From Lysobacter sp. (GTDB lineage: Bacteria; Pseudomonadota; Gammaproteobacteria; Xanthomonadales; Xanthomonadaceae), in assembly GCA_004322525.1 (NCBI GenBank), contig SCUY01000083.1, positions 1-40,736 of the forward strand: a stretch of DNA of 40,736 nt, written 5' to 3'. This document shows positions 14,702 through 21,998 of this stretch, in pieces; position 1 is the stretch's first letter; each line of letters starts with the position of its first letter. Both the position numbers and the translations under genes were made by a program. The notes below the pieces were generated by a model. The model was not told the origin of the DNA, did not search any database, and saw only the letters and a list, made by a program, of their open reading frames with translations.

Positions 14702-16504
14702 TCAATATTCCTTGAGCATCGCGCTCGCATCACGTCCGTCGAAATGCAGCCCATGGCCCGCTTCCGGGACCGGCGGTGGCTGGTACAACGAAACGCGATT
14801 GCGGCCGGCGACCTTCGACCGGTACATCGCCGCATCGGCATGCGCGATCAGCGCCTCGTAGTCGTACCCGGACATGGAGGAGCCCACCACGCCGATGCTG
14901 GTCGCAACGGGAAGCGCGCATCCGGCCGCATTCGCATCGATGTCCGCGATCGACCGGCGGCACTGCTCGGCGATGCGCAGGGCGGCATCGACATCGCAGT
15001 CGATCAGCGTCATGGCGAATTCCTCGCCGCCGATACGGCCGTAGAGATCGCCCTCGCGGCAATGCAGGCGGCCCACGCGCGCGACTTCACGCAGCACCCA
15101 GTCACCGGACGAATGGCCGCACTGGTCATTGATCTGCTTGAAGTGGTCCAGGTCAAGCAACAGCATGCTGACCGGGCGAGCCTGCTGCGAACATGCAAGC
15201 AGCGCCGCCTCCGATCGCGCGCGGAAATCCCGGCGGTTGCTCAGGCCGGTGAGGCTGTCGGTCTCGGCCAGCTGGCGCAGCCAGCCATGCGTACGGCGCG
15301 CGCGCCAGCCCCAGTAGGAGACCGACGCCGCCAGCACGACGAGCAGCGCCACGATCAGGCGGAAGTTCCACGCGGTGCGCTTGGCGACTTCCTGCTGCAG
15401 GCGCAGCAGCTGGTTCTGATTACTGAGCAGGGCGATCGACTGGTTCTTCTTGTTCAGCTCGTGCCGACTCAGCTGGAAGGCGTATTCGCGGGATTTGATG
15501 TCGTCAAGACGCGCCTTGTCGGCTTGGGCATAGCGACGGTAATGGTCGAGCGCCCCGGCGATGTCGCCGCGCTTGAGTGCGACGGTATAGAGCACGCGCT
15601 GTGCCACGACGCCGGCAAGGGAATTCGCATCGATGCCGCGATCGCGCACTATGGCCGTCGCTTGCGCATGCGCAGCGGCGAGATCGCCTTCTTCAAGCTG
15701 GTATTGCGCGAGCAACTGGCGAAGCTCGCCGACCAGGCGTGTGTAGCCGGTGCCCACAGCCTCGGGCAGGCTCGCCTCCAGCAGGGCGATGGCCTGCCGT
15801 CGGCGCCCTGTCCGTGCCCAGTAGTCGGCGAGGGTGGCGCGGATGGCATTGACGGCGATCGGCTCTCGCTGCGCCGCGCAGTCGGCGATCGCCTCGTGCA
15901 CGTCGGAGTCCTCGTCCAGAGAACGCCCCAGGCCATTGAGCGCCCGTACGCGCACCTGGCGGGCGAAGCAACGATTGCGTGGATCCGGCTGCTCAGCGAG
16001 CGCGCGTTCGGCTTCGGCGAGCGCCATGTCGAAATGGCCGAACTCGTTGTAGATCGTGCCGGCTACTCCCATGCTCGTTTGCCGCAGGCCCGCATCGGTG
16101 ACCCGTTCGCGGAGCATCAGTGCACGATCGAGATAGCGCAGACCGGTAAGATAGTCGCGGTTAAGTGCAGAGATATTCGTGATCAGCAGGGCCGCGCGGT
16201 ACTTGAGCTCGGGTTCCGGAGCCTGCTCGACCAGCGCCATCGCATCACCGAGTGCCGCCTGGTAATCACCGGTGATGGTGCGGCGGTAGTCTTGCAGAAG
16301 TCGCAGGTGCCGAAGCTCGCTGGGATCTGCTTCGCTCTTCCGGCGTTGAAGCTCGGCGAGCAGCGCCGTCATGTGTCGGGTGTTCGAACTCTTATGCGTA
16401 TCTGCCTCGCGCAGCAGTTCGCCAAATGGCGTTGCCCGAGCCTGCGCCGCGGGCAACGCCAAAATGATAACGAGACAGAATGTCCGTATTGCCTGAGCTG
16501 CCAC
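14702..16504 (-). CDS. GGDEF diguanylate cyclase with TPR-like periplasmic sensor region
   Basis: Signal peptide, helical repeat N-terminus, TM (FRLIVALLVVLAASVSYWGW), TDSLTGLSNRRDF, GRIGGEEF catalytic motif, RxxD I-site (REGD) five residues upstream of GGEEF. Confidence 0.93.
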   Translation of the reverse strand: MAAQAIRTFCLVIILALPAAQARATPFGELLREADTHKSSNTRHMTALLAELQRRKSEADPSELRHLRLLQDYRRTITGDYQAALGDAMALVEQAPEPELKYRAALLITNISALNRDYLTGLRYLDRALMLRERVTDAGLRQTSMGVAGTIYNEFGHFDMALAEAERALAEQPDPRNRCFARQVRVRALNGLGRSLDEDSDVHEAIADCAAQREPIAVNAIRATLADYWARTGRRRQAIALLEASLPEAVGTGYTRLVGELRQLLAQYQLEEGDLAAAHAQATAIVRDRGIDANSLAGVVAQRVLYTVALKRGDIAGALDHYRRYAQADKARLDDIKSREYAFQLSRHELNKKNQSIALLSNQNQLLRLQQEVAKRTAWNFRLIVALLVVLAASVSYWGWRARRTHGWLRQLAETDSLTGLSNRRDFRARSEAALLACSQQARPVSMLLLDLDHFKQINDQCGHSSGDWVLREVARVGRLHCREGDLYGRIGGEEFAMTLIDCDVDAALRIAEQCRRSIADIDANAAGCALPVATSIGVVGSSMSGYDYEALIAHADAAMYRSKVAGRNRVSLYQPPPVPEAGHGLHFDGRDASAMLKEY

Positions 16505-16560: not shown

Positions 16561-16830
16561 CTAGCCGGCGAACGCGTCCGGCGCCTCGGCCGGTTCTGGC
16601 TGGTCATCCACCGGGCCATCTTCCCGTGCTGGCTCTTCCTGATCAGGCGCATAGACCACGCATGCCATGAAGGCACGCCCGCTCATGGCTGCGGCCAAAG
16701 CCGGAGCATCGCCTGTGCGGAATGCGGCGCGCGCTGCCGGATCGAGAGACATCGCCAGATCGGCGGCTGCCCCCTCCCCGGCGTACGGGGTGCGGGCGAG
16801 GTGTTCAAGAAGAGAGATCGCGTCGTACAT
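16561..16830 (-). CDS. Putative split-borosin precursor peptide (SonA-like borosin-binding domain plus C-terminal core/tail), 89 aa
   Basis: MYDAISLLEHLARTPYAGEGAAADLAMSLDPAARAAFRTGDAPALAAAMSGRAFMACVVYAPDQEEPAREDGPVDDQPEPAEAPDAFAG; SD GAAGGA 5-6 nt before ATG; starts 26 nt after the methyltransferase stop; helical 'DPxAxxxFxxGDxxALxxAMSG' followed by a hydrophobic strand resembles SonA organisation. Confidence 0.8.
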   Translation of the reverse strand: MYDAISLLEHLARTPYAGEGAAADLAMSLDPAARAAFRTGDAPALAAAMSGRAFMACVVYAPDQEEPAREDGPVDDQPEPAEAPDAFAG

Positions 16831-16856
16831 GATTTTCCTTCGTTCAAGTTGCCGTT

Positions 16857-17678
16857 TCAAACGGGTCGGGTTGTCTTCGGCGTGGTCGCAGATAGCCGGG
16901 CGAGCCGCATGCGCATCGCCTCGTCGGCGACGAGCGCATGCGCGGGCGGGACGATCAGGGTGGATTGCATGGTCAGCTTGCTGTCGGGCAGGTCCGCGAG
17001 CACCACGCATTCGATGCGCGGCGACACGACGGCTGACGTTGCTGCCTCGTAGATCGTGACGATGTGGTCTGCGGGGTAGTCGAGAAGCAGCCGCTCCACG
17101 AGCACCTGGCGGTGCGCGGGCGTGGTCGCGAAACGCAGGCAGGCCGGATCCCCGACGATGCCGACCTGCCACAGCACGAGATAGGCGGACGCATCGATGC
17201 GGCGCGGATACAGCAGGAGTTGCGTGGCTTCGTAGTGCTGGCAGCCGAAACGGCCCGGGTCGATGCCCATGTCGGCGTAGAGGCAGTCCTCCGCCGAGAC
17301 ACCGGGTTCCATGGCTGCGCCGAAGCCTTCGCGCCGTGCCTGCGCGATCGCATCGTGGGGTACCTGCGCGAACACGCCGGGATGCCCGTAGAACGCGCCG
17401 CAGACACGTCGGCCGCGACGGACTTCATCCAGCATCACGTCGGCCATCTCGCGATAGGTCTCACGGCGCGACTTGCCCTCGGCATAGTAGGGCTGGAGGC
17501 TGATCGCATCCGGTCGCATGGTCTGCAGCCACAGCTCGACGAGCGCATCGGAAGCCGCGACAAACACCACATCGGCCTGCTCGATGTAGGCCCGTGCGCG
17601 CGGGCCCAGATGGGCGCCGAGCATCATTCCCACACCTACGCAGGCGAGGTGGCCCGGCAGCTGTGCGGCGGCGGTCAT
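16857..17678 (-). CDS. Split-borosin peptide alpha-N-methyltransferase (tetrapyrrole methylase fold, SonM-like), 273 aa
   Basis: MTAAAQLPGHLACVGVGMMLGAHLGPRARAYIEQADVVFVAASDALVELWLQTMRPDAISLQPYYAEGKSRRETYREM...GAFYGHPGVFAQVPHDAIAQARREGFGAAMEPGVSAEDCLYADMGIDPGRFGCQHYEATQLLLYPRRIDASAYLVLWQVGIVGD...; YYAEGKSRRETY, FYGHPGVF, MEPGVSAEDCL(Y)ADxGIDPG are hallmarks of borosin-type enzymes. Confidence 0.9.
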   Translation of the reverse strand: MTAAAQLPGHLACVGVGMMLGAHLGPRARAYIEQADVVFVAASDALVELWLQTMRPDAISLQPYYAEGKSRRETYREMADVMLDEVRRGRRVCGAFYGHPGVFAQVPHDAIAQARREGFGAAMEPGVSAEDCLYADMGIDPGRFGCQHYEATQLLLYPRRIDASAYLVLWQVGIVGDPACLRFATTPAHRQVLVERLLLDYPADHIVTIYEAATSAVVSPRIECVVLADLPDSKLTMQSTLIVPPAHALVADEAMRMRLARLSATTPKTTRPV

Positions 17679-17709
17679 GCGGTCGATCCCCTTCGACGAC
17701 AGGACCACC

Positions 17710-18249
17710 CTACCCGTCGGCCGCCCCCATGCCAACCGGCCGACGCCAGCGGTCGTGGTCGAGAATCCACCGGGCGGTGCCGGGGCGATCGGGCGGAGCG
17801 TCCACGAAACCCTGCGCGCAAAGAAGCCGGCGCGACATCCGCTCATTCGGGCCGGCCTGGCACATGCCGGACAGACGGTCGATCGCCAGGTCGTCGAAGG
17901 CATGAGTGACCAGGGCTTCGATCACCTCGTGCGAATAGCGCGCGTTCCACGCGGCGGGTAGGAGCATGAGCCCCATCTCGGTGTCAGGCGCGCGATGCAG
18001 AAGGGCCCCAATACCCACATCGCGCCGGGTGGAGCGTTCTGTAACCGCCCAGACCCGGCATGCCGGCTCGTCGGCCTCATTTGCCCCAACGACGGCACGG
18101 AACGCCCGTGATGCCGCGCCCTCATCAAGTGGCGGGGCGATGCGGGCCATGACGCGCGGGCAGCAATACAGCGCGCGATAGAGACCCTCATGGGCGTCGA
18201 TGAGAGGCGAGAGGTCAAGGTTCGCGGTGGAGAGCGTGGGCAGCGGCAT
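17710..18249 (-). CDS. GNAT family N-acetyltransferase (RimJ/RimL-like)
   Basis: MPLPTLSTANLDLSPLIDAHEGLYRALYCCPRVM...EMGLMLLPAAWNARYSHEVIEALVTHAFDDLAIDRLSGMCQAGPNERMSRRLLCAQGF; 31-nt gap to the methyltransferase gene. Confidence 0.75.
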   Translation of the reverse strand: MPLPTLSTANLDLSPLIDAHEGLYRALYCCPRVMARIAPPLDEGAASRAFRAVVGANEADEPACRVWAVTERSTRRDVGIGALLHRAPDTEMGLMLLPAAWNARYSHEVIEALVTHAFDDLAIDRLSGMCQAGPNERMSRRLLCAQGFVDAPPDRPGTARWILDHDRWRRPVGMGAADG

Positions 18250-20408: not shown

Positions 20409-20428
20409 CGTCACGTCACGTCACGTCA
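20409..20428. repeat. Four tandem copies of CGTCA (TGACG on minus strand) at the EF-hand gene stop
   Basis: cgtca cgtca cgtca cgtca read directly; the last TCA is the TGA stop of 20426-20785(-). Confidence 0.9.
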
Positions 20429-20785
20429 CTGCGGCGGTGCGGCCAGTTCGCGCGCGTCGAGGAAGCCGTCGTGGTCGCGATCCTGGCGCCGGAATGTCGC
20501 TTCCAGCGCCGCGCGATGCTCGGCCAGTGAAACCGGTTTTCCACGGCCACCGGGCAGTTCACGGGCGTTGACAATCCCATCGCCATCCACATCCATGCGC
20601 GCGAAGGCATAGCCCATCCAGGCCTGGAATTCCGCCAGCGAAACACGGCCGTCATGGCCGGTGTCCATGCGGGTGAGATAGTCGCGGCTGGATCCGACCG
20701 CCGGCGTCGTCGCATGCAAGCCCGTTGCAACAAGGAAAAGGACGGTGCCAAAGAGCACGGACCCGGTGGGCGACGATACGGCCAT
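20426..20785 (-). CDS. EF-hand domain protein, exported
   Basis: MAVSSPTGSVLFGTVLFLVATGLHA signal; EF-hand loops DTGHDGRVSLAEF, DVDGDGIVNARE, DRDHDGFLDAREL. Confidence 0.85.
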   Translation of the reverse strand: MAVSSPTGSVLFGTVLFLVATGLHATTPAVGSSRDYLTRMDTGHDGRVSLAEFQAWMGYAFARMDVDGDGIVNARELPGGRGKPVSLAEHRAALEATFRRQDRDHDGFLDARELAAPPQ

Positions 20786-20789
20786 CGGC

Positions 20790-21998
20790 TCAGTACGCGG
20801 CCGGCGCCAGCGCATAGCCCTTCAGGCGTGCCGAGAACTGCTGCAGCGAGGCGATGCCGGTGGCCTCGGCTTCCTGGCACCAGGCATGCAGGCGCGCGAG
20901 CATCGCCTTGGCATCGTGCGAGCGGTCGTCGAGCACCTGCGCCAGGCGCGCGCGGTACTCGGTAACGGTCGCGAGCTTCGGACGCTCGGCGAGGAATGCC
21001 GCCAGGCGCGCCTTCTTCTCCTCGTCGAGCCAGCGGCCGCCATCGGCCAGGCCCTTGCGCAACTTCGAAGGCAGCAGGTGGCGGGCCTTCGCGCCCGCTG
21101 CGGCCGCCTCCTCCCGCAATGCGGGCAACGTGACGCTGCGGTAGTAGTCGGTCATCGCCTGGAAGCGGATCGCCAGCAATGCCTTCAGCGTCTCGCCATC
21201 GGGCATGGCGATGTTGGGGCGCACGTCGAGGCTTGGCGCGACGCGCAGCACCCGGGCGAGACCTACCGCCTCGAATGCCTTGATCGCGGCCCAGCCGATG
21301 TCGAACTCCCACTTGCGCAGCGCGAACTTCGCCGACGACGGGAAGGCGTGGTGGTTGTTGTGCAGCTCTTCGCCACCGATCCACACGCCCCATGGGGTGA
21401 GGTTGGTCGCGGTGTCGGCGGTCTCGAAATTGCGGTAGCCCCACCAGTGGCCAAGGCCGTTGACCACGCCCGCCGCCCAGAACGGAATCCACGCCATCTG
21501 GATCGCCCACACGGCGACGCCCTTGAAGCCGAACAGCGCGAAGCTGATGAACAGCAGCAGCGTCGGCCCCCAGGTGGCGAATGGCGTGTACAGGCGACGT
21601 TCGATCCAGTCGTCCGGGCAGCCCTTGCCGTACTTCTCGATGTCATCGCGCTGCGCGCGCGCTTCGCGGTACAGCTCGACACCGCGCCAGAACACGGTGC
21701 CGATGCCCTTGATCTGCGGGCTGTGCGGATCTTCTTCCGTCTCGCACTTGGCGTGGTGCTTGCGATGGATCGCCGCCCACTCGCGGGTGATCATCGAGGT
21801 GGTGAGCCAGCACCAGAAGCGGAAGCAATGCGACAGCACCGGGTGGAAATCCACCGCGCGATGCGCCTGCGAACGGTGCAGGTACAAGGTGACGGTGAGG
21901 ATGGTGAGCTGGGTCGCGACGAGCAGGTAGACTAGCATCGCGCCCCAGCCGAGCTGGAACACGCCACCGGCCAGGAAATCGAGGAACGAAGCGGACAT
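20790..21998 (-). CDS. Acyl-CoA/fatty acid desaturase
   Basis: Histidine boxes HRSQAH, HRKHH and HNNHH; multiple TM helices; 402 aa. Confidence 0.94.
   Translation of the reverse strand: MSASFLDFLAGGVFQLGWGAMLVYLLVATQLTILTVTLYLHRSQAHRAVDFHPVLSHCFRFWCWLTTSMITREWAAIHRKHHAKCETEEDPHSPQIKGIGTVFWRGVELYREARAQRDDIEKYGKGCPDDWIERRLYTPFATWGPTLLLFISFALFGFKGVAVWAIQMAWIPFWAAGVVNGLGHWWGYRNFETADTATNLTPWGVWIGGEELHNNHHAFPSSAKFALRKWEFDIGWAAIKAFEAVGLARVLRVAPSLDVRPNIAMPDGETLKALLAIRFQAMTDYYRSVTLPALREEAAAAGAKARHLLPSKLRKGLADGGRWLDEEKKARLAAFLAERPKLATVTEYRARLAQVLDDRSHDAKAMLARLHAWCQEAEATGIASLQQFSARLKGYALAPAAY

Follow-up and report, generated by a model that had tools for sequence, protein, structure and literature searches.

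The window analysed here, a stretch of 40,736 nucleotides from Lysobacter sp., bears on its minus strand a compact run of four genes that encode a GNAT acetyltransferase, a borosin-type alpha-N-methyltransferase (MT), a small protein of 89 residues and a large protein in which a TPR-type domain is joined to a GGDEF domain (Table 1). In that order the genes are separated by only 31, 26 and 56 nt, and Shine-Dalgarno-like sequences precede the MT (AAGGGGA), the 89-aa protein (GAAGGA) and the TPR-GGDEF gene (GGAG). A preliminary description of this DNA had proposed a run consisting of the first three genes, in which the small protein possessed a ribosome-binding site of its own. The coordinates, strand, lengths and both gaps of that proposal are exact, and GAAGGA does precede the start of the 89-aa gene, but the run is longer than was supposed, the TPR-GGDEF gene having been overlooked just beyond the region described. 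This gene belongs to the borosin run. The GNAT, by comparison, is an optional member of the cassette: of the 81 loci compared (80 from relatives together with that of the window, mutually related and not independent of one another), 35 have a GNAT homologue close to the MT and in the same orientation, either upstream of the MT or between the MT and the precursor. Elsewhere in the window, positions 20426-20815(-) encode a small protein with the EF-hand-like motifs DTGHDGRVSLAEF, DVDGDGIVNARE and DRDHDGFLDARE, which probably binds calcium.

Table 1. Genes and predicted features of the borosin run (positions in the window)
Feature	Position	Strand	Basis
GNAT acetyltransferase (Acetyltransf_3), 179 aa	17710..18249	-	Pfam PF13302, E 4e-14
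Borosin alpha-N-methyltransferase (MT), SonM-like, 273 aa	16857..17678	-	phmmer, SonM 7ltc, E 8e-70
Predicted borosin precursor, 89 aa	16561..16830	-	family profile to SonA, E 0.003-0.008; AlphaFold2 helices
Predicted precursor core, residues 54-64 (FMACVVYAPDQ)	16639..16671	-	family alignment and repeated cores of L049
TPR-GGDEF membrane diguanylate cyclase (by homology), 600 aa, GTG start	14702..16504	-	Pfam GGDEF, E 1e-38; in relatives, too, placed after the precursor
Predicted periplasmic TPR domain, residues 26-380	15365..16429	-	AlphaFold2 pLDDT 90; Foldseek; two conserved Cys
Predicted transmembrane helix, residues about 381-403	15296..15364	-	mean hydropathy 2.2 over 17 residues
GGDEF domain, residues 413-570	14795..15268	-	Pfam PF00990

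The methyltransferase and its precursor

Pfam assigns the enzyme only to the broad family PF00590 (TP_methylase), a label that would equally suit an ordinary tetrapyrrole methylase standing beside an unrelated small protein. In a phmmer search of all PDB sequences, however, the MT matched SonM (7ltc) with an E-value of 8e-70 over residues 9-257, and dbOphM, MroMA and OphMA with E-values of 7e-49 to 2e-45, whereas corrin methylases reached only 0.008-0.02. The NCBIfam tetrapyrrole models (CobA/CobM/CysG) scored 13-30 bits against cut-offs of 185-525. The tetrapyrrole methylase was rejected on these scores, the conservation of the adjoining precursor likewise argues against it, and its chance of being correct is very small indeed. 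Mutation has shown that Y58, R67, Y71 and Y93 of SonM matter (PMC8429565); their equivalents here, Y65, R71, Y75 and Y97, are invariant among ten diverse relatives. This Tyr/Arg/Tyr/Tyr set had already been recognised in the preliminary description, and the four motifs quoted there from the MT all occur in the sequence. Grouping with CobA, CbiF or RsmI had been named as the outcome that would speak against a borosin enzyme. The grouping found is instead with SonM and the OphMA-type enzymes, whose E-values are better by over 40 orders of magnitude, with the tetrapyrrole models under their cut-offs and the catalytic residues kept. As had been suggested in preference to the tetrapyrrole label, the enzyme and the small protein almost certainly form a split-borosin pair, with catalytic activity assigned by homology.

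Matches to the MT occur in 37 of 61 near relatives (the genome of the window counted in), in 144 of 300 genomes of the order and, in a class-wide sample, in only 10 of 369 genomes, the window's own among them. The relatives that bear it include Lysobacter, Luteimonas, Arenimonas, Rhodanobacter, Dyella, Frateuria, Pseudoxanthomonas and others. Since nearly all of the relatives' loci that were read have a similarly built small protein next to the MT, and 37 of the 61 related genomes give a match, the locus is not a product of chance. Six class-level loci from other families (L143-L148) carry divergent borosin-like MTs, mostly accompanied by no recognisable precursor and, in each case, by no TPR sensor.

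On sequence grounds the 89-aa protein is a SonA-like borosin precursor, with a predicted layout of helical leader (the borosin binding domain, residues 1-50), core and acidic, Pro-rich tail. A search of the PDB with the single sequence returned no match. A family profile built from 28 members and run against the whole PDB placed SonA chains at the top, with modest E-values of 0.003-0.008 and an alignment over the leader; a LigA-type dioxygenase subunit appeared lower in the same search (E 0.56), and structural homologues of the SonA leader are described as capping dioxygenases in the SonM paper (PMC8429565). The AlphaFold2 model displays four helices within residues 2-48 and is unstructured beyond them. 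With this model Foldseek gave two weak hits only, LigAB alpha and SonA (E 8.7), which were not counted as proof.

Beyond the leader, the family retains a hydrophobic stretch, often with a Cys residue, followed by Pro and acidic residues, which reads FMACVVYAPDQEEP in the protein of the window. The segment FMACVVYAPDQ aligns with the conserved family core pattern hydrophobic-Cys-x-(I/V)-x-(A/S)-P-(D/E), and this unit is taken to be the core because a single precursor, that of locus L049, repeats it four times (LSCLVFTPEE, YFCWVATPEE, YFCAVNTPEL and YFCGVLTPEE). The SonA-like layout claimed in the preliminary description was borne out for the helical leader, and a conserved hydrophobic stretch does lie beyond it; in contrast to SonA, however, this stretch gives way to a mainly acidic tail of some 25 residues in which Glu, Asp and Pro abound. 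Two or three precursor genes are present in several loci, and L010 has them in tandem. Two core-like repeats are also seen in the precursors of L128, L071 and L130, as with TVCCMMLP, repeated in L128.

The TPR-GGDEF sensor and its genomic association

The product of the fourth gene is, by homology, a membrane diguanylate cyclase that would synthesise c-di-GMP. Its 600 residues begin with a signal-like segment, which is followed by the TPR-type domain; a membrane helix then leads to the GGDEF domain, which bears both an intact active site (GGEEF) and the inhibitory I-site (REGD). Among 147 homologues, the GG[DE]EF motif is present in 145, the N-terminal hydrophobic segment together with the pre-GGDEF helix in 132, and a hydrophobic stretch at the position of that helix in all 147 counted.

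For the AlphaFold2 model of the TPR domain (pLDDT 90), the best Foldseek hit in the PDB was Rap with the CSF pheromone (E 7.5e-6, TM about 0.6), with LGN, RapF with its inhibitory peptide, the Rap protein of phage phi3T and NprR among the hits that came after it. This modelled likeness to Rap is suggestive of a peptide receptor and serves as a pointer only, since TPR folds resemble one another; LGN scores like Rap. Of 116 TPR domains linked to borosin genes, 114 retain both Cys residues 179 and 209, a near-invariant pair that would suit a periplasmic disulfide. A specific pairing of these cysteines with Cys-containing cores was considered and found unsupported, as their conservation does not depend on the presence of Cys in the core.

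In 78 of the 81 loci the MT has a TPR-GGDEF gene in the same orientation no more than 4 kb away; in the other three the contig ends directly behind the MT, so that every one of the 78 uncut loci possesses the gene. Within the sample of 300 genomes the strict TPR type was found in 105, of which 101 carry the MT (Fisher p 3e-39, uncorrected for kinship). A further 43 genomes have the MT and no strict TPR match, and in all seven of these that were read a diverged TPR-GGDEF gene stands beside the MT. A second order was searched with SonM itself as the query, and each of the 20 loci read there has a TPR sensor nearby. The output domain of this sensor is GGDEF in the majority, L195, L199 and L200 having a histidine kinase instead; six of the 20 loci come from one genus, presumably Shewanella, and encode MTs that are 67-81% identical to SonM. 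In other families, a TPR domain with a hybrid histidine kinase is encoded near split-borosin genes at L141:9977-12934(-) and L142:10383-13631(+). The TPR-histidine kinase replaces the TPR-GGDEF protein in L142, L195, L199 and L200 and stands beside it in L141, and the kinases joined to TPR in these loci are mostly hybrid. The TPR part of the sensor is accordingly constant while the output, GGDEF or histidine kinase, varies.

The link to a sensor is not universal, since L049 and the six divergent class-level loci (L143-L148) have no TPR sensor nearby. Three further loci (L207, L208 and L209, in genomes G653, G435 and G456) show the reverse, a borosin-type TPR-GGDEF gene with the MT undetected, and may represent orphan receptors, losses or assembly gaps.

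A candidate ligand-receptor cassette

The run may encode a modified peptide together with its own receptor. The MT would bind the 89-aa precursor by its helical leader and, with strong support from homology, methylate amide nitrogens of the backbone in the hydrophobic region around FMACVVYAPDQ. The core, once freed and perhaps acetylated by the GNAT, would by way of proteases and exporters reach the periplasm or the medium, where it could bind the periplasmic TPR domain of the neighbouring cyclase and thereby alter cytoplasmic c-di-GMP synthesis. These last two steps are suggested by the linkage of the genes, by fusion, by the doubling of precursor-sensor pairs, by the swapping of output domains and by the fold. 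A split-borosin cassette with a dedicated TPR receptor is the best explanation of the locus as a whole, with a somewhat better than even chance of being right; that the mature N-methylated peptide is itself the ligand of the neighbouring TPR sensor appears about evenly balanced.

Operon linkage, co-occurrence and the swap of output domains would also be accounted for by a real split borosin whose peptide serves another role, such as metal binding or antibiosis, with the TPR-GGDEF protein as an upstream regulator. Such a sensor would read an external cue, and c-di-GMP would control either production of the peptide or the lifestyle in which it is used; many of the cores, having Cys and acidic residues, could bind metal. 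This alternative is rather unlikely, and three observations are easier to reconcile with a sensor that partners the peptide directly than with one that regulates from a distance. The first is fusion. In four genomes (G035, G022, G011 and G019) the TPR domain, transmembrane segment, GGDEF domain and MT form one uninterrupted ORF (L031:8167-10707(+), L032:679-3696(+), L033:1441-4005(-) and L034:7971-10583(+)), each protein with a signal segment at its start and each gene with a SonA-like precursor gene upstream; Pfam, applied to three of the proteins, detects both domains, the GGDEF ending near residues 567-569 and the methylase starting near 584-593. The second is the duplication of precursor/TPR-GGDEF pairs under one MT, as seen in L075, L089, L102, L116 and L123. 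The third is co-variation of precursor and TPR beyond that of the MT: their distances correlate with r 0.84, and a partial r of 0.54 remains after the MT distance is removed, a value reached in none of 500 mirror-tree permutations, in which phylogeny is only partly controlled. The possibility that the cyclase is linked by chance or by hitch-hiking was rejected, as the proximity holds across different gene orders, in two bacterial orders and as a fusion.

The same GGDEF-MT fusions, in which the MT is placed alongside the cyclase at the membrane, would also suit a single cytoplasmic or membrane complex of precursor, MT and cyclase, in which the uncleaved N-methylated precursor acts within the cell as an allosteric subunit of the cyclase or kinase and no export takes place. 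In favour of such a complex, the precursor lacks a signal peptide, and no gene for a protease or exporter was identified, either in the cassette of the window or as a conserved feature. It sits poorly, however, with L049 (8998-13979(+)), where the four-core precursor and the MT are followed by a C39-peptidase ABC exporter and HlyD, a set that may serve, by analogy, as a precedent for core cleavage and export. The part of the sensor that stays constant while outputs change is, moreover, the TPR domain, which is predicted to be periplasmic, and its two near-invariant cysteines would suit an oxidising compartment. An export-free complex is judged distinctly improbable.

A released peptide that acts on the TPR receptor remains the preferred reading of the locus. 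Its extension to proteobacterial split borosins at large, as peptide signals that form a modular cassette with a periplasmic-TPR cyclase or hybrid kinase, the MT sometimes fused to the receptor, is more tentative and falls a little short of an even chance. Were this to hold, bacterial peptide signals would gain a chemically new class, in which RiPP chemistry is tied directly to c-di-GMP signalling, and TPR-type cyclases and kinases so far lacking an assigned ligand would be provided with one. No biological role for borosins is named in the borosin literature examined, and by 2021 no split-borosin pathway had yet been tied to a final natural product (PMC8429565); a conserved sensor partner with a measurable output (c-di-GMP, biofilm, motility) makes such a role directly testable. 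The Cys-containing and multi-core precursors, along with their enzymes, are also additions for the engineering of N-methylated peptides.

Comparison with known systems

Split borosins are already known, and the MT-precursor pair is a further member of a known family; what sets it apart is the design of the precursor and the sensor cassette. The literature search returned no paper that joins borosins with a diguanylate cyclase, within a scope that left subscription borosin-mining papers, which may note the link, out of reach, and SO_1480 was not mentioned in the literature searched. The nearest relative is the type IV system SonM/SonA of Shewanella oneidensis (7ltc; PMC8429565), which likewise comprises a separate MT of 260-270 residues and a small precursor with a helical leader. 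In both systems the two genes are adjacent on one strand and the SonM residues Y58/R67/Y71/Y93 are kept, and the Shewanella-like loci share the TPR-GGDEF gene with that of Lysobacter. The accessible sections of the SonM paper describe a small conserved gene cluster and do not mention a cyclase (PMC8429565). The core of SonA is formed by its last ten residues, whereas here a core motif with Cys, Pro and acidic residues is followed by the acidic tail, and the GNAT is a further difference from the SonM/SonA locus.

OphMA and the other fused fungal borosins (types I-III) belong to the same MT family, but in these the enzyme is fused to the core; here the two are split, and the fusion seen in relatives joins the MT to the cyclase and not to the core. 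Split architecture is shared with the bacterial types V-X and 0/XI, and bacterial pathways are widespread (PMC11395268, PMC11285071). The type XI borosin is described as a C-terminal MT behind an N-terminal domain of unknown function (PMC11395268), in place of which the fused relatives found here carry TPR-GGDEF.

Among receptors, Rap and NprR of the RRNPP group have the TPR-type superhelix that gave the best structural match to the sensor TPR model, with LGN scoring similarly. The known RRNPP ligands are short peptides whose genes lie next to those of their receptors. RRNPP receptors are, however, cytoplasmic proteins of Gram-positive bacteria that bind unmodified peptides and have other outputs; instead of a cytoplasmic receptor with a Rap phosphatase or DNA-binding part, the present protein has a signal-like segment, a membrane helix and a GGDEF domain, and its TPR domain is predicted to be periplasmic, with output through GGDEF or, in relatives, a histidine kinase.

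A further parallel is RcbB, a TPR-GGDEF cyclase of Vibrio vulnificus, in which the TPR domain controls the GGDEF and a genetically linked partner relieves the inhibition (PMC12282931). RcbB illustrates that a TPR domain can keep a cyclase inactive until its partner binds (PMC12282931). It is, however, predicted to reside in the cytoplasm, and the partner that it responds to is itself a TPR protein, whereas the partner proposed for the Lysobacter sensor is a modified peptide.
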